Assembly (NCBI RefSeq): GCF_000697965.2
Contig: NZ_CP015880.1
Span: forward strand, 3,615,001 to 3,679,000
Origin: Ensifer adhaerens
GTDB lineage: Bacteria; Pseudomonadota; Alphaproteobacteria; Rhizobiales; Rhizobiaceae
Length of the DNA: 64,000 nt
Direction of reading: 5' to 3'
Each line of letters opens with the position of its first letter. Position 1 is the stretch's first letter. The notes beneath the pieces were generated by a model. That model saw only the letters and a list, made by a program, of their open reading frames with translations, did not search any database and was not told the origin of the DNA. Shown piece after piece: positions 15,505 through 54,906 of the stretch. Both the position numbers and the translations under genes were made by a program.

Positions 15505-15520
15505 GGATTCACGTGAAACC
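15505..15520. other. parS-like site (ParB binding), GANTC variant
   Basis: GGATTCACGTGAAACC matches the parS palindrome TGTTTCACGTGAAACA in the core TTCACGTGAAAC. The left arm reads GATTC, a GANTC methylation motif. It is intergenic, between asd and the transglycosylase gene, ~37 kb from the proposed oriC. Confidence 0.65.
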
Positions 15521-15600
15521 ACGATAAAGTTACCTGCCGCTTGCGGTAGGTGACACGGCCGGCGAAGGCTGGCATTTTTAAGAGCAACGAGATTCGGGCT

Positions 15601-16437
15601 ATGACGGGGTATTTCATGCACAGGGCGAAGTGCGCAGCAGTGGGGCTTGCCGCCCTGATTTCGACTGCAGTTTTTCCGGCGGTGGCATCTGCCGCCCAAT
15701 GCGGCAATGACGGAAGCGGCTTTGAAGCCTGGGTGCAGAACTTCAAGCAGCAGGCCTCCGGCAACGGCATCAGCCCGCAGGTGCTCGACCGTGCACTCTC
15801 CGGCGTCTCCTACAACAAGGCGACGATCCGCGCCGACCGCGGCCAGAAGAGCTTCAAGCTGTCGCTCGAGCAGTTCATGCAGAAGCGCGGCGGCCAGGTG
15901 ATCATTTCCCGCGGCAAGAAGATGAAGCAGCAGAACGCCGCACTCTTTACCAGCATCGAGCGGCGCTACGGCGTGCCGGCTGGCCCGCTGATTGCCATCT
16001 GGGGCATGGAAACCGGCTTCGGCGGTTTCATGGGCAAGGAGCACACGCTCTCGGCCGTTTCGACGCTGGCCTATGACTGCCGTCGCTCGGACTACTTCAC
16101 CAACCAGCTCTATGCGGCCCTGCAGCTCGTGCAGCGCGGCGATCTGAGCCCGGATGCGCGTGGCGCCGCCCACGGCGAGATCGGCCAGACCCAGTTCCTG
16201 CCCGCCAACGTCCTGAAATACGGCGTCGATGGCGATGGCAACGGCCATGTCGACATGGTTCGCTCCAAGGCCGACGCGCTGGCATCCACCGCCAATTTCC
16301 TGCGCGGCCATGGCTGGCAGCCGGGCGCCGGCTATCAGCAGGGTCAGGCGAACTTCGCTGCGATCCAGGGCTGGAACGCCGCAAGCGTCTACCAGCAGGC
16401 GATCGCCATCATCGGCGCCGAGATCGACGGTCTCTAG
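15601..16437 (+). CDS. Lytic murein transglycosylase (MltB-like, GH103)
   Basis: A 278-residue exported enzyme. Residues 1-31 form a signal peptide (AAVGLAALISTAVFPAVASAA). The catalytic glutamate is Glu137 in AIWGMETGFGGFMG, and ARGAAHGEIGQTQFLPANVLKYGVD is the typical substrate-groove stretch. It cleaves peptidoglycan glycan strands to 1,6-anhydro ends in the periplasm. It lacks a lipobox, so unlike E. coli MltB it should be soluble, and it ends soon after the catalytic domain with no peptidoglycan-binding module. I chose the ATG at 15601 since the frame upstream is polar; 15616 is possible. Confidence 0.88.
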   Translation: MTGYFMHRAKCAAVGLAALISTAVFPAVASAAQCGNDGSGFEAWVQNFKQQASGNGISPQVLDRALSGVSYNKATIRADRGQKSFKLSLEQFMQKRGGQVIISRGKKMKQQNAALFTSIERRYGVPAGPLIAIWGMETGFGGFMGKEHTLSAVSTLAYDCRRSDYFTNQLYAALQLVQRGDLSPDARGAAHGEIGQTQFLPANVLKYGVDGDGNGHVDMVRSKADALASTANFLRGHGWQPGAGYQQGQANFAAIQGWNAASVYQQAIAIIGAEIDGL

Positions 16438-16472
16438 GATTTTCGTCCTTCGGAACGCATAACCAACCAGAC

Positions 16473-16507
16473 AAAGGGCCCGGTTCGAAAGAGCCGGGCC
16501 TTTTTTT
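16473..16507. terminator. Terminator shared by the convergent transglycosylase and carbonic anhydrase genes
   Basis: GGCCCGG / CCGGGCC stem (loop TTCGAAAGAG) with seven T on the plus strand and AAA on the other side; it lies between two converging stops. Confidence 0.85.
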
Positions 16508-16516
16508 GCTGACCGA

Positions 16517-17170
16517 TTACATTCCCGGGCGGGAGAAGTCGCCCGTCACCGGGTCCATCACCCAGAGTTCGCCGGTCGAGATGTCGAACCAGGCGCCGTG
16601 CAGGTGGAGCTTGCCCTTGGCCTCGAGGATCTGGACGCACGGGAAAGTGCGCAGATTGGCAAGCGAGTTGCGGATCGAAACCCGCTCGAGCGCACGCTGG
16701 CGCTCCGCCTGCGTCATCACGTCGTTGCTCTGGATCTGCTCAGCCGCGGGCCTCAGCAGATGCATCCAGCGACCGATGAAATCGCCCGGTGACAGAGGCT
16801 CCGCATCGGGATCGAGTGCCGCTTTGATACCACCGCAGCGGCCATGGCCCATGACGACGATGTCGCTGACGCGCAGTGACTGCACGGCGAACTCGAGGGC
16901 TGCCGAAGTGGAGTGGTAGTGACCATCCGGCTCGTAGGGCGGCATGAGATTGGCGACGTTGCGCACGACGAAGAGTTCGCCCGGGCCGCTGTCGAAGATC
17001 GTTTCCGGCGCAGCGCGCGAGTCGCAACAGGCAATCACCATCGTCTTCGGCTTTTGACCGGTTTCCGCCAGCGCCTTGTAGCGTTTCTGCTGCTCGCTGA
17101 AGCGACCGTTCATGAAGTTGTGGTAGCCGTTCAGAAGATAGTCCGGAAAACGCTGCTGCTGCTTGTCCAT
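16517..17170 (-). CDS. Beta-class carbonic anhydrase
   Basis: A 217-residue zinc enzyme interconverting CO2 and bicarbonate. The zinc ligands are visible: Cys49 in ACCDSR, with His109 and Cys112 in GHGRCGG; Asp50 and Arg52 form the usual catalytic dyad. Length and order fit the bacterial beta class (CynT/Can type). The start at 17170 (MDKQQQRFPDYLL) has a GGAG ribosome site; the frame is open 21 codons further up without a better signal. It is monocistronic and likely cytosolic, serving bicarbonate-dependent carboxylases. Confidence 0.93.
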   Translation of the reverse strand: MDKQQQRFPDYLLNGYHNFMNGRFSEQQKRYKALAETGQKPKTMVIACCDSRAAPETIFDSGPGELFVVRNVANLMPPYEPDGHYHSTSAALEFAVQSLRVSDIVVMGHGRCGGIKAALDPDAEPLSPGDFIGRWMHLLRPAAEQIQSNDVMTQAERQRALERVSIRNSLANLRTFPCVQILEAKGKLHLHGAWFDISTGELWVMDPVTGDFSRPGM

Positions 17171-17299
17171 CGATTGCTCCGCTCGTGCTTCAAGGCGGCA
17201 TGGCCGGCTTTCGCCCACCTGCGCCTCCGTCATGAAAATGATCGCGATCTAAAATTCAATCCACGATGCCATAGGGGTGGCGGTCCGTGAACAGCTTCT

Positions 17300-18193
17300 T
17301 CACTTGCGCCGCATCTGATTCGGATGAACCAGTCGGCGCATCTGCACCATCGCCATTGGCGTCGATAGGCTCGACGCGTCCTGCTCGATGGTCAGTTCAT
17401 CCGCGCCGCGCTTGACGCTCCGCGCGATGATCTCAAATACGCTCGCAGTCGCCATCTGCAAGGCACGTTCCTCTGAAAGTCCTTCAAGGATCCGGGCGAG
17501 AAACACCGCCGCCAACAGGTCGCCCGTACCATTCGGCGGGTTTTCGACCAAACGATGTTCGGCAAGCAGGGCGTGGTTGCCCGAGAGAAAGAGATTACCG
17601 GTCCCGCCGCTCATCATCGGCACGGCAGACGTCACCAAGACGCGGGCCGGACCGAGGCCGAGCGCTGCGTCAAGGATCGCCGTGTTCGTCTCCAACGTCG
17701 CCCCGGCAAGCCAGGCAAGCTCGTAACGGTTCGGGGTCGCGAGATTTGCAAGCGGCAGCAACCGGTCGCGAATGGCAACCGCCGTGACTTCCGGCACATA
17801 GAGACCGCCAGCATCGCCGATCACGGGGTCGCAGGCGTAGATCAGTTTGGGATTGCGCTCCTTCAGCGCCGTCACCAGCCGGGCCACGCTTTCGGCCTGT
17901 CCGGCCGAGCCGAGGTAGCCCGAAAGCACGGCACGCACCTCTCCGGCCCAGGGTGCTGCCATGAGGTCATCGATCACCGACCCGAAATCCTGATCGGAAA
18001 TGGTGACCCGCGTCGAGCGGCCGTGGCCCGGATGCCAGGGGAGGATGACGGTCGGGAGGGCCCAGACTGGATGCCCCAGAGTTTCAAGCGCGAAGACCAC
18101 GGCCCTGTTGCCCACCTTGCCGCGCACGACATGGCTAGAGATGACGATGACGGCGCCGGGCAGGGAAGGCATTTCGGGCATCGACCAGTCCAA
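17300..18193 (-). CDS. pdxY: Pyridoxal kinase
   Basis: A 297-residue ribokinase-superfamily enzyme that phosphorylates pyridoxal to PLP (vitamin B6 salvage). Evidence: VIVISSHVVRGKVGNRAVVFALETLGHPVWALPTV near the N-terminus (shown here in part) is typical of PdxY/PdxK, CDPVIGDAGGLYVP follows at ~121, and the catalytic aspartate is Asp225 in PNGTGDLLAAVF. The start at 18193 is the first in frame; MPEMPSLPG, six codons on, is an alternative. The C-terminal ~25 residues past the kinase fold are poorly conserved. It stands alone; a B6-related YggS protein is encoded 20 kb to the right. Confidence 0.9.
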   Translation of the reverse strand: MDWSMPEMPSLPGAVIVISSHVVRGKVGNRAVVFALETLGHPVWALPTVILPWHPGHGRSTRVTISDQDFGSVIDDLMAAPWAGEVRAVLSGYLGSAGQAESVARLVTALKERNPKLIYACDPVIGDAGGLYVPEVTAVAIRDRLLPLANLATPNRYELAWLAGATLETNTAILDAALGLGPARVLVTSAVPMMSGGTGNLFLSGNHALLAEHRLVENPPNGTGDLLAAVFLARILEGLSEERALQMATASVFEIIARSVKRGADELTIEQDASSLSTPMAMVQMRRLVHPNQMRRK

Positions 18194-18349
18194 TCCTACG
18201 ATCTCGAAACTCTGTTCACCCGACTGTCACCCCCCTGTCAACAGCCGATGGCAGATAGGCTCCGGAGAAGCCTCTGGCGTTTTCGTGCTTTTTCTTCGAT
18301 TTTCGAGCAATTTTCGCGAAATTACCTTCGATTTAAATGGATTTAAGCT

Positions 18350-18365
18350 GTTTTCACGTGAAATT
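18350..18365. other. parS-like site, degenerate outer bases
   Basis: GTTTTCACGTGAAATT retains the 12-bp core TTTCACGTGAAA but differs from the consensus in the outer two bases on each side. It lies between pdxY and gdh in an AT-rich stretch. The weakest of the eight with an intact CACGTG core. Confidence 0.45.
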
Positions 18366-18466
18366 CTCCGATTTTGGGCTCGATTTTGCCGAAATCAGCG
18401 TAAAAAGCGGTCGCCATTAGCCATGGTTCTGATAGGGTTTGGCCTATCATGAATGGGAGAGACTTC

Positions 18467-23260: not shown

Positions 23261-23392
23261 CGGTACCAAAGAGGATGCGGGCAGTTTTTTCGCCCGCGTC
23301 CGGTTCCAGACCTTTTGGAATCGGTTCAATTGAAGATAGGCTGCGCCGCGCGTTCGAGGGGACGCGTGGCGCAGTCGTTTCGGGAGGGGACT

Positions 23393-24820: not shown

Positions 24821-24875
24821 CTGTTGGGCCTTAGCGGCCAATTCCGGACAGACGCCCAGCGCCCGCCCGACGATC

Positions 24876-26492: not shown

Positions 26493-26600
26493 GCTCCTTT
26501 GGCGGCGCCGGACGCCCCGGGAGGAAGCTCCGGCGGTTGAGATGGCTGCCCGTTAGCATAGCTTGCCGGGCGAAGGAACCTCGCCGGGCCTGAAGATCGC

Positions 26601-26633
26601 GATGAATCTGGATCGGATCGATCCAAATTCATC
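26601..26633. repeat. 14-bp inverted repeat upstream of purH
   Basis: GATGAATCTGGATC and GATCCAAATTCATC pair over 14 positions with a single mismatch and a 5-base loop (GGATC). No T-tract follows on either strand, so it is unlikely to be a simple terminator. It lies between the heparinase-like gene and purH, both leftward. Confidence 0.6.
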
Positions 26634-26709
26634 AATGCGATCGCTCCTGAAACGCGAACGGAAAACTTGAGGCGCTTTCTTGGGCGTGCCTGTCGTCAAG
26701 ACAGAAGGC

Positions 26710-28398: not shown

Positions 28399-28608
28399 CG
28401 CCGCCGGTTACCTCATTTCTGGCACGATCACTCACATCATCGGAGCGCGCCAGGACCTCGCGCCAGCGTCCGCATGGTGCCGCGAAGACCATTAAACTTT
28501 TATCAATCCTGCCATCTTTGATAGGCTTCCCGGTCGAAAGCGTCAAATGATGCGGTGAAACAGGGCCTTGAGGCCCGGTTCGAGCTGCTGAAAGCTCAGT
28601 TTGCGCTG

Positions 28609-31001: not shown

Positions 31002-31017
31002 CGTTTCACGTGAATCA
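31002..31017. other. parS-like site, GANTC variant
   Basis: CGTTTCACGTGAATCA; the right arm reads GAATC (31012-31016), a GANTC motif, while the left arm and CACGTG core match parS. It lies in the divergent htpX / sdhAF4 upstream region. Confidence 0.7.
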
Positions 31018-35824: not shown

Positions 35825-37732
35825 TTATACACCGATGCCGCGCCCTTGCAGCGCAACGGTGATTTCGTCGAGGATGACTGGATCGTCGATCGTCGCGGGC
35901 ATCTTCCAGGGCTGGCGGTCAGCGATCTTCTGGATCGTGGCGCGCAGGATCTTGCCCGACCGCGTCTTCGGCAGCCGCTTGACGCAGATCGCCAGGCGGA
36001 AGGCGGCAACAGGTCCGATGCGTTCGCGCACGAGGCTGATGACCTCGCGCTCGATCTCCGACGTTTCACGGGAAACATTGGAGTTTATGACGAGGAAGCC
36101 GGCCGGGACCTGGCCTTTCAGGTCGTCGGCAATGCCGATCACGGCGCATTCGGCCACATCGGGGTGGCTGGCGCAGACCTCCTCCATCGCTCCGGTGGAG
36201 AGGCGATGGCCAGCCACGTTGATGATGTCGTCCGTCCGCGCCATGATGAAGATGTAACCATCCTCATCGAGGTAGCCGGCATCGGCAGTCTTGTAGTAGC
36301 CGGGAAACTCGTCGAGATAGGCCGCACGGAACCGATGGTCAGCATTCCAAAGCGTCGGCAGGCAGCCTGGCGGCAGCGGCAGCTTTACCACCACATTGCC
36401 GAGCGTACCGGCGCCAACCGGATGTCCGGCATCGTCGAGAATCTGGACGTCGTATCCCGGCAGCGGAACCGCCGGAGAACCGTACTTTACCGGCAGGAGC
36501 CCGAGCCCCATCGGATTTCCCGCCACGGGCCATCCCGTTTCCGTCTGCCACCAATGGTCGATGACGGGCACGCCGAGCGCGTTTTCTGCCCATTGGATCG
36601 TGTCGGGATCCGCCCGTTCTCCGGCAAGAAACAACGCGCGGAATTTCGACAGGTCGTACCGGCGAACGTGGGAAGCCTCCGGATCTTCCTTGCGGATCGC
36701 TCTCAGCGCCGTCGGCGCGGTGAACATCACCACGACGCCGTGTTCGGCAATGATGCGCCAATAGGTGCCTGGATCCGGCGTGCCGACCGGCTTGCCTTCG
36801 AACAGGATCGAGGTGCTGCCGTTGAGGAGCGGACCGTACACGATATAGGAGTGGCCAACGACCCAGCCGATATCGGACGCAGCCCAGAACACTTCGCCCG
36901 GCTGCACGCCGAAGAAATTCTCCATCGACCATTTGAGCGCGACCATGTGGCCGCCATTGTCGCGCACCACGCCCTTGGGCTGGCCGGTCGTGCCCGACGT
37001 GTAGAGCACATAGAGCGGATCGGTCGAGGCGACCGGAGTACAGCCGACCTCTTCTCCCGCCTGCTTGGCCGCCGCCAAAGCCGCAGCGAAATCGAGGTCG
37101 CGTCCCTCGGTCATGGCGGCTTCCGCCATCTCGCGTTGGAAGACGAGGCAATGGGCCGGCTTGTGGGTCGCGATGTCGAGCGCCGCATCCAGCAGCGGCT
37201 TGTAGGCCACGGTGCGCCCAGGTTCGATGCCGCAGCTTGCGGACACAATGAGCTTGGCCTGGCAATCGTCGATGCGTACGGCGAGCTCGTTGGCGGCAAA
37301 ACCGCCGAAAACCACGGAATGCACGGCGCCGATGCGCGCAGCCGCCAGCATAGCAACCGCCGCCTGCGGGATCATCGGCATATAGATAATGATCCGGTCG
37401 CCCTTGCCAACGCCGAGTTTCCGGTAGACGGCGGCAAGCGCTGCTACATCGCCGAGCAGAGACGCATAGGAGATGCGCTCGACCCGCCCGGTGACGGGAC
37501 TGTCATAGATGAAGGCGATTTGCTCGCCACGGCCCGCGGCCACATGGCGATCCAGGCAATTGTAGCAGGTATTGGTGATGCCTTCGGCGAACCAGTGCCC
37601 ATAGATGCCAGCGTCCGCATCAAATGCACGTGCCGGTCTTTCAAACCAGTCGATCGCATTGGCGGCATTTGACCAGAAACTCTGCGGGTCCGATTTCCAG
37701 CCCGCGTACACGTCGGCATAGCGACTCGCCAT
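35825..37732 (-). CDS. prpE: Propionyl-CoA synthetase (PrpE type)
   Basis: A 635-residue AMP-forming acyl-CoA synthetase. YTSGTTGQPKGVVRDNGGH is the ATP loop, IDHWWQTETGWP the core motif, and [20 protein letters not shown] the C-terminal acylation site. RYADVYAGWKSDPQSFW at the start and GVVRDNGGH favour PrpE over acetyl-CoA synthetase. It would feed propionate into the methylmalonyl route. The stretch NVSRETSE near residue 553 is encoded by a near-parS palindrome. The start at 37732 (MASRYADVY) follows GGGAGGAA. Converges on the LysR gene with 43 bp between. Confidence 0.9.
   Translation of the reverse strand: MASRYADVYAGWKSDPQSFWSNAANAIDWFERPARAFDADAGIYGHWFAEGITNTCYNCLDRHVAAGRGEQIAFIYDSPVTGRVERISYASLLGDVAALAAVYRKLGVGKGDRIIIYMPMIPQAAVAMLAAARIGAVHSVVFGGFAANELAVRIDDCQAKLIVSASCGIEPGRTVAYKPLLDAALDIATHKPAHCLVFQREMAEAAMTEGRDLDFAAALAAAKQAGEEVGCTPVASTDPLYVLYTSGTTGQPKGVVRDNGGHMVALKWSMENFFGVQPGEVFWAASDIGWVVGHSYIVYGPLLNGSTSILFEGKPVGTPDPGTYWRIIAEHGVVVMFTAPTALRAIRKEDPEASHVRRYDLSKFRALFLAGERADPDTIQWAENALGVPVIDHWWQTETGWPVAGNPMGLGLLPVKYGSPAVPLPGYDVQILDDAGHPVGAGTLGNVVVKLPLPPGCLPTLWNADHRFRAAYLDEFPGYYKTADAGYLDEDGYIFIMARTDDIINVAGHRLSTGAMEEVCASHPDVAECAVIGIADDLKGQVPAGFLVINSNVSRETSEIEREVISLVRERIGPVAAFRLAICVKRLPKTRSGKILRATIQKIADRQPWKMPATIDDPVILDEITVALQGRGIGV
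36062..36077. other. Near-parS palindrome inside prpE, centre mutated
   Basis: CGTTTCACGGGAAACA differs from the perfect site at 45444 at one position, in the centre (CACGGG for CACGTG). It encodes Val-Ser-Arg-Glu-Thr of PrpE in the same register as the parS sites in rsmG and aroE. It probably no longer binds ParB well. Confidence 0.35.
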
Positions 37733-41341: not shown

Positions 41342-41355
<14 letters not shown>

Positions 41356-41866
41356 TAGAGCTGGTTTCCGTATCCGGTCGATTCCGGTTCTGGCTGGCGC
41401 GCTCATGTTGACCGCGCTCGCCGGCTGCCAGGTCCGGCCGCTCTATTCCGACCCGGTCGGCACCTCGACGGCACTGGCGGCGATCGAGATTTCCGAAGCC
41501 ACCGACCGTGTCGAGCAGGAAGTGCGTAACGCGCTGATCTTCCTGGCCGCAGGTGGTCAGGGCGAGCCCGTGAATCCGCAGTATCACCTGGCGCTCACCG
41601 TCACCCACCGGTCGATGGGCGTGCTCTACGATCAGGCCAAGGACCGCGCCGGCGCCGGCCGTATCGTCGTCAAGGCGGACTACAATCTGACGAAGATCGG
41701 TACGGGCGAGACCATCAAGTCCGGCAACCGCACCGCCGTTGCTCTCGTTGACTTCCCGGTCCAGGAATTTGCCAAGGTGCGCGCCGTTCGTGACGGTGAA
41801 AACCGCGCAGCCAAGGAACTCGCCGAGCTGATCCGGGCCGACATCGCCGCGGCTCTCAGCCGCTAA
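41342..41866 (+). CDS. lptE: LPS-assembly lipoprotein LptE
   Basis: A 174-residue lipoprotein: a basic N-terminus, a hydrophobic stretch and the lipobox LTALAGCQ with the acylated cysteine near residue 29, followed by VRPLYSDP, a common start of mature LptE. The rest has the beta-sheet/helix pattern of LptE (COG2980) and ends in the conserved helix with [17 protein letters not shown]. LptE plugs the LptD barrel that inserts LPS in the outer membrane. It overlaps leuS by 14 bases and is 11 bases ahead of holA, the order conserved across proteobacteria, which supports the call. Confidence 0.9.
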
Positions 41867-41877
41867 CGGGTGTCGGC

Positions 41878-42912: not shown

Positions 42913-43120
42913 CCTGCCTCTGTCGACCCAGTCCCGTTACCGCAGCCTAGTGCTCGAATTTCGCCAACAGGTCTTCAGGCTGCATGAGGGAGATGGGTGG
43001 ACCTCGCCGTCCGAAATTCAACTGGACGCCAAAAGATCTCATCATATCAAATAATTAGGCGCGCCGCTCGTTGGAGAGACGCGCCATCAATACGCCTAAG
43101 CAAAAATACGCACGAGTGGC

Positions 43121-44011
43121 TTATCGCCGCTCGAGCAGCCGGCAGATTTCTTCCAGTTGATCCAGCGTCTTGTAGGCGATGCGCAAATGACCACCGGATG
43201 CCTTGTGGTTCACGGTAACCTCAAGCCCGAGGCTATCCGACAACGTGCGCTCGAGCGCTAGCGTATCGGCATCCTTCTCGTCGCGACGGACGGTCTTGCC
43301 GTAATTCGGATCGTTCTGCGCGCGAATATCGTTCTGCGCGATGCGCTCGGCGTCACGCACCGAGAGCCCCTTGGCAATGATCGTCCGGGCGAGGGTAGCC
43401 GGATCCGAGGTCGGAATGAGTGCACGGGCATGTCCAGCCGAAAGCGCGCCTTCCGACAACATGTCCCGAACAGGTTCCGGCAGTTTCAAAAGACGCAGGC
43501 TATTGGCGACATGGCTTCGGCTCTTGCCGATGATCTCGCCGAGATCGTTCTGCGTATAGCCGTGCTCTGCGATCAACTGCTCGTAGCCAAGCGCTTCGTC
43601 GAGCGGATTGAGATCCGAGCGCTGGACGTTTTCGACGATAGCGATTTCAAGCGCCGTGCGATCGTCGACGTCGCGAATGATAACCGGGATTTCGGTGAAC
43701 CCGGCCAGTTGTGCGGCACGCCAGCGGCGCTCGCCGGCGATGATCTCGTAGCGATCGACGCCGATGGTGCGAGCAACGACAGGCTGGACAATACCATGCT
43801 GACGGATCGAATTGGCGAGATCCTGGAGTTCGGCTTCGTCGAACTGACGACGCGGGTTGCGCGGGTTGCGCGATACGAACTCGATCGGCACGCGCCGATC
43901 CGGATTGACCGGGGCAGGGGCAGCTGCCCCTGTTTGCAACGGCTGATCCATCTCGCCGATCAACGCGGCCAGTCCGCGACCAAGCCGCCTCTTCGAGCTA
44001 TCGTCGTTCAT
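43121..44011 (-). CDS. parB: Chromosome-partitioning protein ParB
   Basis: A 296-residue ParB/Spo0J. The N-terminal tail KRRLGRGLAALIGE (ParA contact) is followed by the ParB nuclease-like CTP-binding domain with NPRRQFDEAELQDLANSIRQHG and the GERRWRAAQLAG motif near residue 95. The HTH region with GYTQNDLGEIIGKSRSHVAN binds parS, and a C-terminal dimerisation domain ends LLERR. It loads at parS sites and slides along DNA. Eight parS-like sites are visible in this window. It is 35 bp behind parA in the same unit. Confidence 0.97.
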   Translation of the reverse strand: MNDDSSKRRLGRGLAALIGEMDQPLQTGAAAPAPVNPDRRVPIEFVSRNPRNPRRQFDEAELQDLANSIRQHGIVQPVVARTIGVDRYEIIAGERRWRAAQLAGFTEIPVIIRDVDDRTALEIAIVENVQRSDLNPLDEALGYEQLIAEHGYTQNDLGEIIGKSRSHVANSLRLLKLPEPVRDMLSEGALSAGHARALIPTSDPATLARTIIAKGLSVRDAERIAQNDIRAQNDPNYGKTVRRDEKDADTLALERTLSDSLGLEVTVNHKASGGHLRIAYKTLDQLEEICRLLERR

Positions 44012-44046
44012 ATCGTCACCCGAGTTAAATTACGCTACCGAAATGA

Positions 44047-44841
44047 TTATGCCGCTTTGCGCTGGCGCTCGCGTTGAATGACTTCGGAGGCCAGTTGCAG
44101 ATAGGCCTGACTGCCAGCGCACTTCAGATCATAAAGAATGGCCGGCTTGCCATAGGAAGGCGCTTCCGAGACGCGAACATTGCGCGGGATCAGGGTGTGG
44201 TAGACCTTGTCGCCGAGATGCGTCCGCACATCGCTAACAACCTGCTGTGCCAGGTTGTTGCGCGAATCGAACATGGTCAGGACGATGCCCTGGATATCCA
44301 GGCTCGGATTCACGGTTCGGCGAATCTGATCCACTGTCTCCAGCAGCTGGCTCAGACCCTCGAGCGCGAAGAACTCGCACTGCAGAGGGACAAGCACCGA
44401 ATGGGCGGCCGCCATCGCGTTCATCGTCAGCAAGTTGAACGATGGTGGGCAATCGACGAGCACGTAGGAATATTCCATCGCGGCGGGGCTAACCAAGGCC
44501 TTGCGTAAACGGAAGACACGATCCGGTTCCTGCGAAATTTCCATCTCGACGCCGAGAAGGTCCATGGTCGATGGAATGATCGAGAGGTTCGGAACGGCTG
44601 TCTGTTGAGCGATCTCGCCGATCCCGTGCGATCCCATCATCAGCTCATAGGATGACAGGTTCCGATCGCGGCGTTGAATGCCGAGCCCGGTGCTGGCGTT
44701 GCCCTGCGGGTCCAGATCAACGATCAGAACGTGTTCGCCGATAGCCGCCAATGCGGTCGCCAAATTGATGGCGGTCGTGGTTTTGCCGACGCCGCCTTTC
44801 TGATTTGCGATTGTGATGATCCGGTTTTTGCGACCAAACAT
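44047..44841 (-). CDS. parA: Chromosome-partitioning ATPase ParA
   Basis: A 264-residue Walker ATPase. The deviant Walker A motif KGGVGKTT is at residues 15-22, the A' motif IVDLDPQGNAS at ~45, and YVLVDCPPSFNLLTMNA at ~125. ParA binds DNA as an ATP dimer and is moved by ParB. I chose the ATG at 44841 (MFGRKNRIITIANQ). A GTG at 44859 overlaps the rsmG stop and could also be used. It is part of the mnmE-mnmG-rsmG-parA-parB cluster, an arrangement found next to many origins. Confidence 0.96.
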   Translation of the reverse strand: MFGRKNRIITIANQKGGVGKTTTAINLATALAAIGEHVLIVDLDPQGNASTGLGIQRRDRNLSSYELMMGSHGIGEIAQQTAVPNLSIIPSTMDLLGVEMEISQEPDRVFRLRKALVSPAAMEYSYVLVDCPPSFNLLTMNAMAAAHSVLVPLQCEFFALEGLSQLLETVDQIRRTVNPSLDIQGIVLTMFDSRNNLAQQVVSDVRTHLGDKVYHTLIPRNVRVSEAPSYGKPAILYDLKCAGSQAYLQLASEVIQRERQRKAA

Positions 44842-44855
44842 GTTTCCGCTCGCGA

Positions 44856-45497
44856 TCACTGGGCCCTGCGCGCCAGATTTGCGATCTCGAGCACGACAGA
44901 ATCCGGCTCGACCACGCTTGGATGTTTTACCAGATCAAACTGATAGCGGCCAACGGCTTTGTCGATTTCGCGCTGGTAATCCCGCCCTTTGTGGAAGTAG
45001 GCGACCGCTTTCTGCTCCTTCGCCGTCATCCATGGCGCAGAATAGTCGAGCAGCAAGGTCAAATCCGCGAGCGCGCGCGCCGAAACCGCGTCCGCGCGGG
45101 GAATCAATGCGCCTGCTTCTTCGATTCGAACCGGGTGAACCGAGCCGCGCGCACCCGTCTCGGCCAGAGCTACACGCAGAAAGGCAGCCTTCTTGTTGTT
45201 GCTTTCAACGAGATGGACCCAACCGTCGCCAAGTTCGGCGAGATAGATCGCCGTGATGACACCTGGAAAGCCGCCACCGCTGCCGAGATCGACCCAGGTC
45301 TTCGGACCGGGCGACAACTGCGCGAGCTGCAAGCTATCGACAATGTGCCGACGCCAAAGATCCTCGATAGTGGACGGCGCAACAAGATTGATCGACTTCG
45401 CCCACTTCTGAAAGAGCTTGGCAAAATGCTCCAGCCGTTCATTCGTTTCACGTGAAACACGCAGTCCGTTCAACACATCGATTGGACTCGCCTTCAT
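44856..45497 (-). CDS. rsmG: 16S rRNA m7G527 methyltransferase (RsmG/GidB)
   Basis: A 213-residue SAM-dependent methyltransferase that makes m7G527 in 16S rRNA. The SAM site [18 protein letters not shown] is near residue 68, and [16 protein letters not shown] near 135. Its start overlaps the mnmG stop by four bases (ATGA). Codons 14-18 (Val-Ser-Arg-Glu-Thr) are a full-core parS site, so this stretch of coding DNA has a second function. Loss of RsmG gives streptomycin resistance in several bacteria. Confidence 0.95.
45444..45459. other. parS site within rsmG
   Basis: CGTTTCACGTGAAACA matches the parS consensus at 15 of 16 bases, with a perfect 14-bp palindromic core GTTTCACGTGAAAC. It lies in codons 13-18 of rsmG, ~7 kb from the proposed oriC. 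Confidence 0.88.
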
Positions 45498-47377
45498 TGT
45501 ACGCCGGCCTTTTCTTCACGTTCTACGGTTCGGTTCTGACGCTTCACCCACGCCAGGATCAGCGATGCTGCTGCCGGCGTCATACCGTCGACCTTCATCA
45601 CGTGAGCCAGATTGCGGGGCGCCTGCTGCTTCAGCTTCTGCTTCAGCTCGTTGGAGAGGCCCGAGAGCATATCGAAGTCGAAGCCATCGGGTATGGCAAG
45701 ATTTTCCTCGCGCTGAATGCCGGCGATATCCGCTGCCTGCCGATCCATATAGACCGCATAGACCGCATCGATCTCAAGCGCCTCAACGACGCGCGGACCA
45801 ATCGACAACAGCTCGGGCCAGATGGGCTGCAAGCCGGCAATCGACTGATCGGGATAGGACAGGATCTCGAAAGCAGTGCGCCGTTGGCCATCCTGGTTGA
45901 GCTTAAGGCCATGACGGTTACCTTCAGCCGGGGTTACCGAGAGGCCTTTCAACAGGGCACGTCCTTCGTCGAAACGCGCGCGCCAATCGACAAAGCGTTC
46001 GCGCCGCGCAGCCGAGATGCAGCCGACCTCCATTGCAAGCGGTGTCAGGCGCGCATCGGCATTGTCGGCCCGCAGCGACAATCGATACTCCGCGCGGGAG
46101 GTGAACATGCGATAGGGCTCGGTGATCCCGCGCGACGTCAGGTCGTCGATCATGACACCAATATAGGACTGCGTTCGGCTGAACACGATTTCGTGACGGT
46201 TGGTCGCGGCCAAGGCGGCGTTCAAGCCGGCAACAAGACCTTGCGCGCCGGCTTCCTCATAGCCGGTCGTACCGTTGATTTGACCGGCGAGGAAAAGCCC
46301 TGGCATCTTGCGGACGGCAAGGGTCGCGTTCAGTTCACGCGGGTCGACGTGATCGTACTCGATGGCATAACCAGGCTGCAGTATCGCGACATTCTCCAAT
46401 CCCGGGATCGTCTTGATAAAGGCTTCCTGGATGTCAGCCGGCAGCGACGTCGAAATGCCGTTCGGGTAGATCGTATCGTCGTCGAGACCCTCCGGTTCCA
46501 GGAAGATCTGGTGGCCATCACGCTCGCCGAATCGTACGATCTTGTCCTCGATGGACGGACAATAGCGCGGTCCGACACCCTCGATCTGTCCCGAGTACAT
46601 CGCCGACTTGCCGATATTGTCGGTAATAATCTTGTGCGTCTCTTCCGTCGTCCGCGTCACACCGCAATCGATCTGGCGATTCACGATCCCGTCGGTCATG
46701 AACGAGAAGGGCACGGGATCTTCGTCTGGACCTTGCCGGCCAACACGCGCCCAGTCAATGGTGCGTCCATCCAGGCGGGCGGGCGTTCCGGTCTTCAGGC
46801 GGCCGAGCCGCAACCCAAAACGCAGCAAGGTTCCCGAGAGCCCGACGGACGGTTCCTCACCGACGCGACCGGCCGGTATCTTCTGATCGCCAATATGGAT
46901 GAGGCCCTTCAAGAACGTGCCCGTCGTCAGAACAACGGAGTTCGCTTGAAAGCTGCGGCCGTCCTTCATGACGACACCGTGGATGCGGCCTTGCTCTTCC
47001 AGAAGGTCGAAGGCATCGCCCTCGATAACGGTCAGATTCTCGATGGCAGCGATCTCCCGCTGCATGGCTTCGCGATAGAGGCGGCGATCGGCTTGCGTAC
47101 GCGGTCCGCGCACTGCCGGACCCTTACGGCGGTTGAGCAAACGAAACTGAATACCGCCGGCATCAGCGACGCGCCCCATCAAGCCGTCCATCGCGTCGAT
47201 CTCGCGGACCAGATGTCCTTTTCCCAAGCCGCCGATCGCCGGGTTGCAGGACATAACGCCGATCGTGGATGCCTTGTGCGTGATCAACGCTGTGTTGGAG
47301 CCCAGACGCGCAGCCGCAGCCGCGGCTTCGCAGCCGGCATGGCCACCGCCAATGACGATTACGTCAAATTGCATCAT
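45494..47377 (-). CDS. mnmG: tRNA uridine-5-carboxymethylaminomethyl synthesis enzyme MnmG (GidA)
   Basis: A 627-residue FAD protein of standard length. The dinucleotide site [20 protein letters not shown] is at the very N-terminus; [15 protein letters not shown] and the cysteine-bearing signatures [12 protein letters not shown] and [18 protein letters not shown] are MnmG marks. With MnmE it modifies the wobble uridine of several tRNAs. Two adjacent ATG codons can start it. It is followed by rsmG with a four-base overlap. A parS site lies between its start and the mnmE stop. Confidence 0.97.
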
Positions 47378-47409
47378 TGCCTCTTCTCCGGGGTTGACCC
47401 GGCACGAAT

Positions 47410-47425
47410 CGTTTCACGTGAAACA
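47410..47425. other. parS site between mnmE and mnmG
   Basis: CGTTTCACGTGAAACA, identical to the site at 45444 (15 of 16 consensus bases). A GAATC (GANTC) motif abuts it at 47406-47410, sharing the outermost base. Confidence 0.88.
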
Positions 47426-47467
47426 CAACGAAGGACTCGCACACGTTGTATTGCACTGGCCTACTGG

Positions 47468-48796
47468 TTATTTCCCGATACAGAATTCAGAAAATATCAC
47501 ATCGAGAAGGTTCTCAACATCCACGCGGCCGGTTATCCGTCCAATTGCGTCGCCAGCAAGGCGCAACAGTTCCGCGCGTATATCCAGCCCCAAGTCCTGA
47601 CTTGCCAAGCTGTCGTCGATCGACCGCTGCGCCTGCCGGAGACTATCGACATGGCGCCGCCGCGAAGGCAGCGACAGCGAGGTCCGCCCACTGAGATCCG
47701 GCAGGTGCGCCGCGATCGCGTCCAGCAGTCGCTCCATGCCTTCGCCGGTTCTCGTCGAGACCAACACATCCACGGCCCCCTCGCGCCAGCCATCACTGCC
47801 GCGATCAAGTTTGGTTCCAACCCGTAGCACGGGCGTCGTGTCGGATGGGAAGTCGGACATGACATCAAAACCGTCCGGCGCATCGGCCAACAGCAAGATC
47901 AGATCTGCTCTCTCGATAATTTCTCGTGCGCGACGAATACCTTCTTGCTCTACTCTCTCGTCGGTTTCCCGCAGCCCCGCCGTATCGTAGAGCTTAACGG
48001 AGAATCCGGCTAAGGAAACGTCCACGGAAAGAACGTCGCGGGTCGTACCAGCAATCTCGGTGACGATTGCAATGTCACGCTGGGCCAGTGCATTGAGCAA
48101 GCTCGACTTGCCGGCGTTCGGCGCACCGGCGATGACGATCTTCAGGCCGTCGCGGATGATCTCCGCGATCGGCGCATCGGCAATATGTGCTGCTATCTCT
48201 TGCGACAGCATGGACATATCCTGCCAGATGCGCTCGCTGACCGAGCCCGGCACATCGTCTTCATCGGCAAAATCGAGCTCGGCCTCGATCATCGCCCGCG
48301 CATGGGTCAAGCGCTTCGCCCAGCCGGCATAGATCTTTGATTGTCCACCGCCGGAGTGTTCGATCGCGAGCCGGCGCTGCATCTCGGTTTCCGCAGCAAT
48401 CAGGTCGGCGAGACCCTCCACCTCGACCAGGTCAAGCTTGCCGTTCTGGAAGGCGCGGCGCGAAAACTCACCGGCTTCCGCATGGCGCAAACCCTCGAGC
48501 TTCGAGAGTTCCTCAAGCAAGGCGTTTACTGCCGCCCGACCACCATGGATCTGAAGCTCGGCGCAGTCTTCTCCTGTAAAGGAGGCAGGTCCGCGAAAAT
48601 AGAGAACAAGGCCGCTGTCGATGACATCGCCGTTACGGGACCGAATCGATCTAAATGTCGCCGACCGAGGTGTTGGCACACCACCACACAACGCCTGCAA
48701 CACCGCTTCGGTGCGCCCGCCGCTGATACGCACGACTGCGACGCCGGCGGGCAGAGATCCGCTGGAAAGCGCATAAATCGTGTGCGTCGCTGTCAT
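47468..48796 (-). CDS. mnmE: tRNA modification GTPase MnmE (TrmE)
   Basis: A 442-residue GTPase partner of MnmG. The N-terminal folate-binding domain starts [21 protein letters not shown]; the G domain lies at about 210-370 with the P-loop [14 protein letters not shown], switch-region [13 protein letters not shown] and [10 protein letters not shown]. The C-terminal CIGK is the catalytic CxGK end. The start ATG at 48796 is preferred over one nine codons upstream, since [13 protein letters not shown] matches the family start. Confidence 0.96.
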
Positions 48797-49001
48797 GGGC
48801 TCACCTGAAAAGACCGCGGACACGCAGGGCGCGTCGATGGTCGATGCAATGGGGATCGTCGAAGTTCCGGACCGGATCGTTCCGCTTCGCGGAGCGCGCT
48901 CACGCGGGGCAAACGCTATCTCAATGGGTCGGCGTGCTTATGCCGAAAGAATGCCGAAATTTCAAGGCCTCGCCGTATCCTCGTATTTCACGGTGCGCAC
49001 G

Positions 49002-49017
49002 TGTTTCACGTGAATCA
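49002..49017. other. parS site, GANTC variant
   Basis: TGTTTCACGTGAATCA has a perfect left half and core; the right arm reads GAATC (49012-49016), a GANTC motif. Intergenic, ~3.2 kb from the proposed oriC. Confidence 0.8.
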
Positions 49018-49110
49018 GCAGAAACGGTGTCTGTCTGATTGCGGGCCTAGTCGGAGATTGTTGCGAAACCGAATCGAATGACCGGAGAATCCGGCTAAGG
49101 TTTCGAAACG

Positions 49111-49140
49111 AGAAAACCGGCCGACGCGTGGTCGACCGGT
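49111..49140 (-). terminator. Terminator of rho
   Basis: On the minus strand ACCGGTCGAC and GTCGGCCGGT form a 10-bp stem (one G-U pair) with a 5-base loop, followed by TTTTC, 26 bp past the rho stop. Confidence 0.75.
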
Positions 49141-49165
49141 CCCAAAGTCGGATGATGAACGCGTC

Positions 49166-50431
<1,266 letters not shown>

Positions 50432-50552
50432 GAAGGATCCATGTTTGGTATGGGTAGTGGGGAGATGGCGAGTATTCGTTAGGGAGCTGCAGCAGGAAGG
50501 GGCAGGCTCTTGTCTTTGTCACAAGCCATGAAGAGGAGATGGCAGAAAATAG

Positions 50553-50568
50553 CGATTCACGTGAAACC
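50553..50568. other. parS-like site, GANTC variant
   Basis: CGATTCACGTGAAACC; the left arm reads GATTC (50554-50558), a GANTC motif, and the core TTCACGTGAAAC is intact. It lies in the rho upstream region, ~1.6 kb from the proposed oriC. Confidence 0.72.
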
Positions 50569-50625
50569 CTGCAAGGGGCTGTCGCAAATTAGAAACGCCT
50601 ATGACAGGCCGCAAATCGATTAAAT

Positions 50626-51165
50626 TCAGAATGGCTTCACGACGACCATGATGACGATGAGGATCATCAAGACGGTAGGCGCCTCGTTCATCAACCGCCA
50701 ATAGCGCGCATCGTGCCTGTTCTCGTCGCGCTGAAAGGCGCGCACAGCACGGCTGAAACGCATGTGGACACCGGTCAGCAGCACCACGAACAGAAGCTTG
50801 GCATGCAGCCACCCACCCTGGAAGCCATAAATGCTCCAGGCCAGATAAAGCCCGAGCACCCAGGAAATCATCATGGCCGGGTTCATGATGACTTTCAGGA
50901 GCCGCAACTCCATCATCTTGAAGGTTTCCGACTGGGCGGAGCCGGGCTCCGCATCCGTGTGGTAGATGAACAGCCTGGGCATGTAGAGCAACGCCGCCAT
51001 CCAGGACATCACGGCGATAACATGCAGCGCCTTGATCCAGAGATAGAGATCATCCGGGCGCCAGACGAACAGACCGACGAGAAGCGCCACGAACGCACCA
51101 AGCGCGATCGCTGCCCTGAGCCGCGCCCTGTTGCCCGGCGCCCGGTCGGTCTGCTTCTCCGCCAT
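50626..51165 (-). CDS. hemJ: Protoporphyrinogen IX oxidase HemJ
   Basis: A 179-residue membrane protein with about four spans. The stretches LYLWIKALHVIAVMSWMAAL, LYMPRLFIYH and WLHAKLLFVVLLTGVHM carry the conserved histidines of HemJ, the heme-dependent oxidase that turns protoporphyrinogen IX into protoporphyrin in bacteria without HemY or HemG. The ATG at 51165 shares one base with the hemE stop (TGATG), so hemE and hemJ, two steps of heme synthesis, are coupled. A GTG three bases upstream is an alternative start. Confidence 0.94.
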   Translation of the reverse strand: MAEKQTDRAPGNRARLRAAIALGAFVALLVGLFVWRPDDLYLWIKALHVIAVMSWMAALLYMPRLFIYHTDAEPGSAQSETFKMMELRLLKVIMNPAMMISWVLGLYLAWSIYGFQGGWLHAKLLFVVLLTGVHMRFSRAVRAFQRDENRHDARYWRLMNEAPTVLMILIVIMVVVKPF

Positions 51166-52196
51166 CACCGCGCTCCACGAACCCGGGCAACCAGCGCCGA
51201 GACATGATCGGGATCGGCCTGCGGCGTTATGCCATGGCCGAGATTGAAGATCAGCGGACCGTGACCGAGTGCGTCGAGAATGCGGTCAATGCCTTCCTCA
51301 AGCGCCACGCCGCCGGCAACGACCCGCATCGGATCGAGATTGCCCTGTATCGGCCCTTCCTTCTGCAGATCCTTCGCAAAGGAAAGCGGAACGGTCCAGT
51401 CGAGACCGATCGCGTCAGCACCGGTCGCCTGCCGATATCCGTTCAACAGCTGCCCCGCGCCCTTCGCAAAGGCGATGATCCTTGCCTGCGGCCGCTGCGC
51501 CCGAACGGAGGCGATGATCCGCTGCACCGGCTTGACGGCGTAGCGGGCGAATTCCTCCTCACCGAGAACACCTGCCCAGGAATCGAAGATCTGCACGGCA
51601 TCGGCGCCGGCATCGATCTGTCGCACGAGATATTCAGCCGATACATCCGCCAGAAAGCCGAGCAGATGATCGAAGGCTTCGGGATTGCGATACGCGAAGA
51701 GACGGGCAGGGGCCTGGTCCGGCGTCCCCTGGCCGGCGATCATATAGGTCGCAACCGTCCAGGGAGCGCCACAGAAGCCGAGCAGGGTCGTTTCCGAGGG
51801 AAGCTCTGCGCGCAACCGCGAAACCGTCTCAAAGACCGGCTGGAGGTGTTCAGAGATGCCCTCAGGCTTCAGGAGACGGATACCATCAGCATCGATCGGG
51901 TCCATTCGTGGCCCATGGCCTTCCTCGAAGCGCACGTTGCGTTTCAGCGCATCGGGAATGACCAGGATGTCGGAGAAGAGAATGGCGGCATCGAAAGCGT
52001 AGCGACGGATCGGCTGCAATGTGACCTCGACTGCGAGATCGGGCGTGTAGCAAAGATCGAGGAAGCTTCCGGCTACGGCGCGCGTTGCCCTGTACTCGGG
52101 CAGGTAGCGTCCCGCCTGGCGCATGAGCCAGATCGGAGGAGGTGACACCGTCTTCCCTACCAAAACCTCCAGAACCTTTCTGCGTGTTTCGGTCAC
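51165..52196 (-). CDS. hemE: Uroporphyrinogen decarboxylase
   Basis: A 343-residue enzyme removing four carboxyl groups from uroporphyrinogen III to give coproporphyrinogen III. The hallmark [17 protein letters not shown] is near residue 20, the catalytic aspartate region [11 protein letters not shown] near 78, and [13 protein letters not shown] near 140. I prefer a GTG start at 52196 with GGGAGAG eight bases ahead; a TTG nine codons upstream (52223) keeps the frame open. In Caulobacter hemE borders the chromosome origin, and the same seems true here. Confidence 0.95.
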
Positions 52197-52603
52197 GGAT
52201 CGTCTCTCCCAATTAAAAATCAAAGATATTTAGAAGGTTTCTATTTCTTAGAGTCGGTGGGTATCAAGGATTAAAACAACGCACTGACTTGTCCACGACC
52301 GGCGATCACGACGCTCAGCGAAGGGACAATGAGTTCGATCTCTGGAAAAACAGCGTGGTCAATCTCAGAAAGGCATTTTGAATCAGTTCTTTAAGTCGCG
52401 TTCGATTTTTGACGCGCCTGTGGAAAAGCAGTTGATATCCGTGACACTTTGTCCGCGCCGTGAGTCTTGTCCACATCCGCCACGAAACAATGTCCGCCGC
52501 AGCCCCAATTGTGAATAACTCGGCTGTTTTCCACTTGCCTGGATCCAGGCCCCGTCGTTAGCTGTGTTTCATCCCGGCTTATCAACAGCACCAGGAGAAT
52601 TGC
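52197..52603. other. Probable chromosomal origin of replication (oriC)
   Basis: This 407-bp gap between the divergent hemE and ppsR genes holds six 9-mers matching TTWTNCACA with at most two mismatches: 52289-52297 (TTGTCCACG), 52419-52427 (reverse of TTTTCCACA), 52467-52475 (TTGTCCACA), 52510-52518 (reverse of TTATTCACA), 52527-52535 (TTTTCCACT) and 52579-52587 (TTATCAACA). The hemE side (52210-52280) is clearly AT-rich and could be the unwinding element. GANTC sites lie at 52251, 52380 and 52462. No full TTAA-N7-TTAA CtrA site was found. Caulobacter also has its origin beside hemE, and parAB and gyrB flank the region here. Confidence 0.85.
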
Positions 52604-53425
52604 GTGGAGAACAAGAAAAACTACTTCCACCTTCACCTGATTTCGGACTCAACGGGCGAGACTCTGATTGCCGCCGGGCGCGCCGCCGCGGCCCAATTTC
52701 AAAGCTCGCATGCGCTCGAGCACGTCTATCCGCTGATCCGGAACCGCAAACAGCTGCTGCAGGTTCTCGACGCGATCGACGGCGCACCGGGCATCGTTCT
52801 CTATACAATCGTCGACCGCGAACTCGCCGATATCATCGATCGCCGTTGCCGCGAGATGGGCGTCCCTTGCGTCTCCGTGCTGGATCCCATCATCGACCTC
52901 TTTCAGTCCTATCTGGGATCCCCGTCGCGGCGGAGATCCGGTGCTCAGCATGTGATGGATGCGGAATATTTCGCGCGCATCGACGCGCTCAATTTCACCA
53001 TGGACCATGACGACGGTCAGCTGCCGGCGGATTTCGACGACGCGGATGTCGTCCTCATCGGCATCAGCCGGACGTCGAAGACGCCGACCAGCATCTATCT
53101 CGCCAACCGTGGCATCAAGACAGCGAACATCCCGATTGTCCCCGGCGTACCGTTGCCTGAAAGATTGATGGAAGCGACGAAGCCGCTCGTCGTCGGGTTG
53201 ATCGCGACGGCCGACCGTATCTCGCAAGTGCGCCAGCACCGGGTGCTCGGAACGACGCAAGGCTTTCACGGCGATGAGTACACCGACAAGGCCTCGATCA
53301 CCGAGGAACTGAAATATGCCCGGTCGCTCTGTGCGCGCAACAATTGGCCCGTCATCGATGTCACCCGCCGTTCGATAGAGGAAACGGCAGCGGCAATCGT
53401 TGCCCTGCGTCCACGTCTGCGTTAG
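52604..53425 (+). CDS. ppsR: Pyruvate,phosphate dikinase regulatory protein (DUF299)
   Basis: A 273-residue bifunctional kinase/pyrophosphorylase of the DUF299 family, which inactivates PPDK or PEP synthase by ADP-dependent phosphorylation of a threonine and reverses it with phosphate. Visible are [14 protein letters not shown] at the start and [23 protein letters not shown], the P-loop-like site, at ~150. It starts with GTG at 52604 behind CAGGAGAAT. It is the first gene rightward from oriC and heads the ppsR-maf-aroE-coaE-dnaQ series. Confidence 0.93.
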
Positions 53426-53456
53426 AGCGGATTCGAACAATTCGGGAACTTGAATG

Positions 53457-54056
53457 ATGACATCTTCGCTCGTCCTGGCTTCGGCCAGCCCGTTTCGCCG
53501 GGCGCTCCTGGAGAATGCCGGCCTGGTCTTTGAAGCGAAGGCAGCCGAGATCGATGAGCGCGCGCTGGAAAAGCCGCTTGAGGATAAGGGCGCTGCGCCC
53601 GAAACCGTTGCTCTGGAACTGGCGGAAGCAAAGGCGCGCGATGTCGCCAGGTATTTCGCAGACGCGCTGGTGATCGGTTCCGATCAGACAATGTCATTGG
53701 GGCCGCGGGTCTACCACAAGCCGAAGACCATGGCGGAAGCCGCCGCACATCTGCTTTCGCTCTCCGGCCAGACGCACCGCCTGAACAGTGCCGTCGTCCT
53801 TTTGTGTGGCCAAGACGTCATCTGGCGCCATGTGTCTTCCGCCCACATGACCGTGCGCCCGCTGACGGCAGATTTCGTCGAGCGTCATCTAGAGCGTGTC
53901 GGCGAAAAGGCGCTTTCGAGCGTCGGCGCCTACCAGCTGGAAGGCGAGGGCATCCAGCTCTTCGAAAAGATCGAGGGTGACTACTTCACCATCCTCGGTC
54001 TCCCGATGTTGCCGCTGCTTGCCAAACTCCGTGAACTGGGAACGATCGATGCGTGA
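53457..54056 (+). CDS. maf: Maf-family nucleotide pyrophosphatase
   Basis: A 199-residue protein of the Maf/YhdE fold, a house-cleaning pyrophosphatase for non-canonical or nucleoside triphosphates. The start [18 protein letters not shown] is the family's phosphate-binding motif, and [11 protein letters not shown] near residue 73 carries the catalytic aspartate, though the usual SDT is SDQ here, which marks the YceF-like/alphaproteobacterial subgroup. An ATG three bases earlier (53454) is equally possible. The end overlaps the aroE start by eight bases. Confidence 0.9.
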
Positions 54057-54906
54057 TTCACGTGAAACATTTGTTAACCACGCCTTCGTCACCGGCTATC
54101 CGATCAAGCATTCCCGGTCGCCGCTGATCCATGGCTATTGGCTGAAACAGCTCGGTCTGCCCGGCAGCTATCGAGCGCACGAGGTCAAGCCGGAAGAATT
54201 CGCCGCCTTCATTGCCAGCCTCAAGGACGGGACATCCGGTTTCTGCGGTGGCAATGTGACCATCCCCCACAAGGAAGTGGCCTGTCGGCTGGTGGATCAG
54301 CCGGATGAGCTCAGCCAGGAACTCGGCGCCGCCAACACGCTGTGGGTTCAGGACGGAAAGGTGCATGCCACCAATACCGACGGCCGCGGCTTCGTTGCCA
54401 ATCTCGACGAGCGGGCGGCCGGCTGGGACCGGACGTCGACGGCAGTCATTCTCGGCGCCGGCGGCGCAAGCCGGGCGATCATCCAGGCTGTTCGTGATCG
54501 CGGCATCAAGACGATCCATGTCGTCAATCGCACCGTCGAACGGGCGCAGGAACTTGCCGACCGGTTCGGTCCGGCGGTGGAAGCCCATCCGATGGGCGCA
54601 CTCAAGGACGTGATGACCGGCGCAGGCCTGTTCATCAATACCACCTCGCTCGGCATGGACGGCAGCGAAGCACCGGCGATCGACTTCGGCGTTATGGCTT
54701 CGAGCGCAGTCGTCACGGATATTGTCTATGTTCCGTTGAAGACGCCGATCCTGGCGCAGGCAGAGGTGCAGGGCTTTGCGATCGTCGACGGTTTGGGCAT
54801 GCTTCTGCACCAGGCGGTGCCCGGCTTCGAACTCTGGTTCGGCTGTCGGCCGACGGTGGACGCCGACCTTCGACAATTGATTATCGACGACATGGACAGG
54901 CACTGA
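54049..54906 (+). CDS. aroE: Shikimate dehydrogenase
   Basis: A 285-residue NADPH enzyme reducing 3-dehydroshikimate in aromatic amino-acid synthesis. [16 protein letters not shown] is the substrate site, [10 protein letters not shown] holds the catalytic lysine, and [17 protein letters not shown] the nucleotide site near residue 135. It overlaps maf by eight bases and its stop shares a base with the coaE start (TGATG). Codons 3-7 (Asp-Ser-Arg-Glu-Thr) are made by a parS-like palindrome. The N-terminal extension before GYPIKHS is thus partly dictated by that DNA site. Confidence 0.95.
54054..54069. other. parS site at the 5' end of aroE, GANTC variant
   Basis: TGATTCACGTGAAACA; matches consensus at 15 of 16 bases. 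The left arm reads GATTC (54055-54059), a GANTC motif. It lies in aroE codons 2-7 and is the only site found on the right side of the proposed oriC. Confidence 0.82.

Follow-up and report, generated by a model that had tools for sequence, protein, structure and literature searches.

Chromosomal ParABS systems such as those of Caulobacter and Bacillus, and that of Agrobacterium with its parS1, share a ParB-binding palindrome of 14–16 bp that is centred on CACGTG and lies near parAB and the replication origin (oriC). The parS1 consensus of Agrobacterium tumefaciens has been called identical to the Bacillus subtilis consensus (PMC9239152). The same palindrome recurs near parAB and a probable oriC in the DNA analysed here, a stretch of 64,000 nucleotides of Ensifer adhaerens (contig NZ_CP015880.1, positions 3,615,001 to 3,679,000; "the window"). 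The likeness extends to ParB, whose recognition segment is common within the order (Rhizobiales). Unlike the single-consensus parS of the described systems, however, most parS here that are not in rsmG are asymmetric and contain, in one arm, a GANTC, the target of the DNA methyltransferase CcrM.

With the known forms of control through CcrM (GcrA-dependent promoters and the GANTCs of repABC replicons) this array shares the GANTC motif, an encoded CcrM and hemimethylation after replication. It differs from the GcrA-CcrM promoters in that the motif lies inside a ParB site and not in a promoter. The extended motif YGAKTCK, as given in PMC8725594, is not matched by the parS GANTCs, since in GATTCAC the last place of the motif is taken by A, and in GAATC, read from the opposite strand, A stands where the first K should be. 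A further parallel is the GANTCs shielded by MucR in Caulobacter and Sinorhizobium meliloti (PMC5172544), where a DNA-binding protein likewise meets CcrM at one place, although MucR is a transcription regulator and the protein here is a centromere protein. By analogy, ParB could shield its embedded GANTC from CcrM, so that a hypomethylated mark would serve origin or promoter control and not segregation. The MucR precedent speaks for such shielding, but the mismatch to the extended GcrA promoter motif and the varied contexts in which the parS GANTCs occur do not fit it, and we consider it unlikely. In the Paracoccus plasmid pAMI4, parS (3parS) and a GANTC-rich region occur on one replicon, but there the GANTCs are about 500 bp from the nearest parS and the replicon is a repABC megaplasmid with RepB (PMC9040568). 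We found no report of a GANTC within a chromosomal parS, the string GATTCACGTGAA included, in the open-access literature on parS and ParB, CcrM, hemimethylation, adenine methylation, rhizobia and Ensifer methylomes. An embedded parS GANTC is not described in the available portions of PMC11514494, PMC9040568, PMC5172544, PMC3973325, PMC3708114, PMC5815017, PMC7383237, PMC9239152, PMC8725594 and PMC11711589, and a term search of PMC7987155 gave no match.

A first-pass annotation of the window had described eight TTCACGTGAA palindromes as parS, and all eight are present on the forward strand. Seven of them are parS-like, being GTTTCACGTGAAAC-like palindromes near parAB and oriC; the eighth, at 18350, is without the outer G/C and probably does not belong to the parS (discussed below). 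Two of the seven have the symmetric core GTTTCACGTGAAAC that had been reported for them. One of these lies within the rsmG coding sequence (45444..45459) and is without a GANTC; the other lies in the mnmG-mnmE spacer (47410..47425), where, as had also been observed, a GANTC is flush with it (GAATC, 47406..47410), and a second GANTC lies 9 bp off on its other side (47434..47438). The remaining five bear GATTC or GAATC in one arm, again in agreement with the annotation: GGATTCACGTGAAACC (15505..15520, left-arm GANTC at 15506–15510), CGTTTCACGTGAATCA (31002..31017, right arm, 31012–31016), TGTTTCACGTGAATCA in the mnmE-rho spacer (49002..49017, right arm, 49012–49016), CGATTCACGTGAAACC in the rho-hemJ spacer (50553..50568, left arm, 50554–50558) and TGATTCACGTGAAACA (54054..54069, left arm, 54055–54059), the first three bases of which are the maf stop codon. 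This proportion is not attributable to chance, because GANTC is depleted about fourfold in the window (96 found, compared to 368 expected from dinucleotide shuffles) and 14-mers holding it make up 1.5% of the window, giving P ~1.6e-8 for five of seven parS.

The window comes from a contig of 4.07 Mb in a genome of 7.27 Mb, the nearest named relatives of which are Ensifer and Sinorhizobium. TTCACGTGAA occurs 11 times in this genome, 10 of them (including that at 18350) within 101 kb around parAB and oriC; the eleventh copy, GCGTTCACGTGAACGC, is far from the array and is not parS-like. Beyond the window, two more sites (contig positions 3719248 and 3731333) each have one GATTC arm; in the second, the opposite arm has GC.

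The variant was followed in 80 loci around mnmG, which contain 375 TTCACGTGAA sites, and in an even sample of 160 genomes of the order, representing 48 families. Neither genomes nor loci are phylogenetically independent, so that Fisher values are overstated, and we therefore relied on counts of families as well. In the 80 loci, the variant base of the arm was A in 232 arms, C in 2 and G in 1, and the two arms were combined as GA/GT in 224 sites, GT/GT in 141, GA/GA in 1 and otherwise in 9. Single-base variants opposite an intact half-site were GATTCAC (224), GTTTCCC (18, all at one place ~9.5 kb beyond mnmG), GCTTCAC (2), GTTCCAC (2) and ATTTCAC (1). Across the 160 genomes the one-arm GATTC site GATTCACGTGAAAC occurs 186 times, in 73 genomes (compared to once for the reversed-pattern control), and the symmetric GTTTCACGTGAAAC 270 times, in 141 genomes; opposite an intact arm, there are 18 copies of the C version and 4 of the G version (control 3). 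GATTC arms are found in 23 of the 48 families, GACTC arms in five and GTCTC arms in one. The first-pass annotation had named an even spread of arm variants over the bases as an outcome that would tell against its reading; these counts of A, C and G versions refute such a spread.

The restriction to one arm is equally marked. None of the 160 genomes contains the double-GANTC site GATTCACGTGAATC, which with independent arms would be expected ~19 times overall and ~25 times within the GATTC-using families. A general avoidance of perfect palindromes fits the missing GA/GA sites, but explains neither the preference for A over C or G nor the numerous GT/GT sites, and was rejected.

Variation at the N of the motif was examined using the pattern GNVTCACGTGAAAC, which has 23 matches in the 160 genomes (13 GACTC, 3 GTCTC, 1 GAATC and six others). 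Its reversed control has 15 matches over all twelve sequences, and the matches other than GACTC are therefore near background. GACTC outnumbers GTCTC by 34 to 10 in a set of 397 genomes (control 1) and by 8 to 0 in the 80 loci, even though it is two changes away from the consensus and GTCTC only one; set against GATTC and GTTTC arms in the 160 genomes, the odds ratio is 12.6, with a Fisher value overstated by kinship. N is thus relaxed chiefly, although not solely, when the arm is a GANTC. Twelve of the 13 GACTC sites in the 160 genomes, from five families, are near another parS or a par-cluster gene; the thirteenth (G227) has neither within the 19 kb examined. Among the further GACTC sites examined from the set of 397 genomes, those of G500, G445, G429, G484, G444 (three sites) and G412 (one of two, the second being ~14 kb away) lie in the par cluster; around those of G437 (two), G458 and G561 the stretches examined contain no par gene. 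Tandem arrangements were also seen: one genome of the same family as the window carries three GACTC-armed parS in its mnmG-mnmE spacer at ~35 bp spacing (locus L145, 9316–9398), and Pannonibacter and Roseibium loci have tandem one-arm sites in this spacer too.

The form of parS differs between positions. Counting GA- or GT-armed sites in the 71 non-Bradyrhizobium loci (9 other-armed sites being left out), the parS in the 5' end of rsmG, which reads VSRE, is symmetric in 70 of 70 cases and has a GANTC in 0 of 70. Sites in the mnmG-mnmE spacer have one GANTC arm in 85 of 119 cases, and those outside both places have one GANTC arm in 147 of 149, with one site having two such arms and one having none. 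At the site between mnmE and rho, the 14-mer is invariant in 19/19 Ensifer/Sinorhizobium loci, GA arm and orientation included, with a mean major-base fraction of 0.53 in the 10 bases on each side and 0.41 in the next 15 (ungapped comparison, indels counted as change). The symmetric spacer site at 47410 stays symmetric in the same 19/19 loci, with flanks at 0.61 and 0.59. GA is also retained at the rho-hemJ site in all 17 loci that have the core (two of the 19 are without it) and at the maf site in 19/19, although both are less informative because the bases immediately around them are conserved as well (0.95 and 0.997). The maf site has a GA arm in 13/13 listed loci of Rhizobium, Agrobacterium and Neorhizobium type as well, but the arm at 54054 is a poor witness, as its GA is supplied by the TGA that terminates maf. 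The orthologue of 31002 is a one-arm GA site in 8/8 same-genus regions and that of 15505 keeps GA in 7/8, having lost it in G005 (GGCTTC).

Free loss of GANTC between close species, a possibility raised by the first-pass annotation, is therefore largely refuted, GA being kept throughout at three sites and the single loss seen being that of the 15505 orthologue in G005. That annotation had also offered the alternative of a merely tolerated base change, which is unlikely given the base specificity and the per-site conservation across relatives. In its broader form, as neutral variation or lineage drift, this explanation can draw on the one loss within the genus and on the patchy distribution among families, but it is largely refuted by the base specificity, the one-arm rule and conservation despite unconserved flanks, and we regard it as highly improbable. 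Judged from these comparisons, the GANTC arm is a rule across the relatives and not a tolerated change. The existence of the embedded motif, its single-base specificity, the one-arm rule, the relaxed N and the per-site conservation are all shown by the sequence comparisons; the two strongest of these facts, the presence of GANTC in one arm and never more as a rule, and the relaxed N, formed no part of the earlier annotation. This lineage and the families with GATTC arms thus have parS of two kinds. One is symmetric and predicted to be methylation-blind, and the rsmG copy always belongs to it in the loci that were examined; the other is asymmetric, exactly one of its arms containing a CcrM site, usually GATTC and sometimes GACTC.

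The GANTC pair that brackets the 47410-type spacer parS (one flush, one 9 bp off) is kept in 10 of the 19 Ensifer/Sinorhizobium loci; six further loci have one or two GANTCs within the 14-bp flanks, partly shifted, and three have none. We considered a general compensation of symmetric sites by flanking GANTCs, which was rejected since it is clear solely at this orthologous spacer site and is sporadic elsewhere.

The genes around the array run in the order parB, parA, rsmG, mnmG, mnmE, rho, hemJ, hemE, a PpsR-like gene and maf. Located on the reverse strand are parB (43121..44011; TIGR00180, 180 bits, exceeding the cut-off), parA (44047..44859; assigned by position and ParA-type matches, no listed model being over its cut-off), rsmG or gidB, which holds a parS in its 5' end (44856..45497; TIGR00138), mnmG or gidA (45494..47377; TIGR00136), mnmE (47468..48823; NF003661), rho (49166..50431; TIGR00767) and hemE (51165..52223; TIGR01464). 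Between hemE and the PpsR-like gene is a cluster of four DnaA-box-like sequences within 170 bp, each one mismatch from the consensus, and the cumulative GC skew reaches its minimum at ~46–56 kb of the window. For both reasons oriC is probably at 52419..52587, adjoining hemE. From its sequence features, the window holds the array near oriC on which ParB is predicted to load in an Ensifer/Sinorhizobium chromosome. A separate sequence at 36063–36076, GTTTCACGGGAAAC, is a parS altered by one core change, and one of its halves resembles a Noc-binding site (NBS); GTTTCCCGTGAAAC is present in either orientation in 18/80 loci, roughly as far from mnmG as its counterpart in the window.

The palindrome GTTTTCACGTGAAATT (18350..18365) lies upstream of the NAD-glutamate dehydrogenase gene, within its conserved leader. 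Eight same-genus regions were scanned for it, with CACGTG required and no more than one mismatch allowed in the core: four have it intact, two have it with one core change, and in the remaining two it was not found. The surrounding 260 bp show 96–98% identity in the four closest of these relatives. Given the missing outer G/C, the leader position and the uneven conservation within the genus, this palindrome is probably not a parS and was excluded from the count; it could perhaps be a promoter or operator.

The embedded CcrM target suggests that methylation could inform the segregation machinery of which DNA is newly copied. By the geometry of the motif, CcrM would form N6-methyladenine on both strands, at the A of GATTC and at that of GAATC opposite, bringing two methyl groups into the same ParB half-site, and passage of the replication fork would leave this GANTC hemimethylated until CcrM acts late in the cell cycle. 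In Ensifer, GANTCs shift from full to hemimethylation as replication proceeds and CcrM is cell-cycle regulated, according to PMC8725594; the parS GANTCs, close as they are to oriC, should be the first to change state and should remain hemimethylated for the longest time. ParB nucleation at GANTC-bearing parS would then differ between unreplicated and replicated origins, the rsmG copy would supply a constant baseline, and, with the mark limited to one arm, ParB would still find the other half-site intact. It is a guess that the effect runs in the direction of full methylation weakening loading and replication relieving it. Methylation-tuned ParB loading, proposed in the first-pass annotation, is in our view the leading mechanism, with only slightly less than an even chance of being correct. 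In its favour we count the preference for A, the one-arm rule, the excess of GACTC over GTCTC, the kept arm and orientation at the mnmE-rho site, the contrast between the rsmG copy and sites elsewhere, the general depletion of GANTC, the encoded CcrM, the GANTCs that flank the symmetric spacer parS and the change of methylation state reported for Ensifer. We are more reserved about the complete scheme of a methylation-gated centromere, which is plausible but falls short of an even chance; in this scheme the CcrM-marked half of most parS would let the ParB loading platform read replication state, with the rsmG parS as a fixed, methylation-blind reference.

Several observations weigh against methylation-tuned loading. 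The window's own genome encodes CcrM as one 378-amino-acid open reading frame with N6_N4_Mtase and RAMA domains, but RAMA is found in 159/160 genomes of the order (the sole exception being a 91% complete assembly) and, among 14 control genomes, in Caulobacter alone. Since 159/160 genomes encode CcrM and 73/160 have GATTC parS, CcrM is not sufficient for this form of parS, and its presence or absence, which provides no contrast, was set aside as a cause. None of 36 sites in nine Bradyrhizobium loci has a GANTC arm. The orientation of the arm is mixed, both in the 80 loci (139 compared to 93) and in the window, which rules out a consistent strand mark distinguishing sister chromosomes. In a sample of 192 genomes from the class, GATTC parS occur in six: the window's own genome, one other of the same order and four outside it. 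These four have one GATTC parS each, at what their sequences show to be true par loci; the variant can arise elsewhere, but this order is the only one in which it is common. GAATC and GAGTC arms are nearly absent (1 match in 160 genomes), N being only T or C, and because A and G practically never occur there, ParB must still favour a pyrimidine at this position. The GTCTC sites are a further difficulty. Of the 10 in the 397-genome set, all of which were examined, two lie in rsmG and one in the mnmE coding sequence, those in G301 and G270 are 240–250 nucleotides past parB, and those in G353 and G484 share their stretch with another GATTC site and no par gene. The sites in G599 and G594 are beside homologues of glutamate dehydrogenase and acetate-CoA ligase, respectively, both genes that lie near the window's array, and that in G517 has nothing par-related on its stretch. 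Several of these are real parS, which weakens a strict GANTC rule.

Many of these points are accommodated by a serious and close rival, in which GAYTCAC is an alternative half-site that ParB recognises directly, methylation plays no part and the resemblance to GANTC is a coincidence. GA/GT sites would then have intermediate affinity or faster release, suiting the loading and turnover of the cytidine triphosphate (CTP)-dependent clamp, and two GA arms would be too weak, in keeping with the lack of GA/GA sites in the 160 genomes. A direct ParB preference also accounts for the missing GARTC arms by admitting only T or C at N, and it is favoured by the four GATTC parS outside the order and by the failure of CcrM presence to predict parS form, since methylation is not required. 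To look for corresponding changes in ParB we aligned 98 sequences, of which 77 belong to GA-armed loci and the other 21 to loci lacking such an arm. The recognition segment GKSRSHVAN is present in 74/77 and 15/21 of these and GHAR in 76/77 and 19/21, and as both are common to the two groups the recognition segment does not separate them. Other columns of the DNA-binding domain do so in part (Q in YEQL, 69/77 compared to 2/21; D in PVRDM, 62/77 compared to 2/21), which leaves room for a shifted ParB preference and so counts against methylation-tuned loading, although shared ancestry alone could yield the same pattern. A switch of the recognition residues is accordingly a weakened candidate. In Caulobacter ParB, bases 1 and 6 of the half-site discriminate parS from the Noc site (PMC7383237); the base that varies here is base 2. 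The shared recognition segment counts against the alternative half-site, which by itself also leaves unexplained why nearly every site outside rsmG and the spacer has a GANTC arm (148/149) and why the double change to GACTC should coincide with the CcrM target. We consider this rival a tentative but substantial possibility, somewhat below an even chance.

How bacteria time chromosome segregation to replication is an open question. A methylation-gated centromere, if true, would be a direct biochemical link from passage of the replication fork to the start of segregation. Should methylation turn out to play no part, the one-arm rule still points to selection in favour of asymmetric parS, which the view of parS as a symmetric consensus does not predict.

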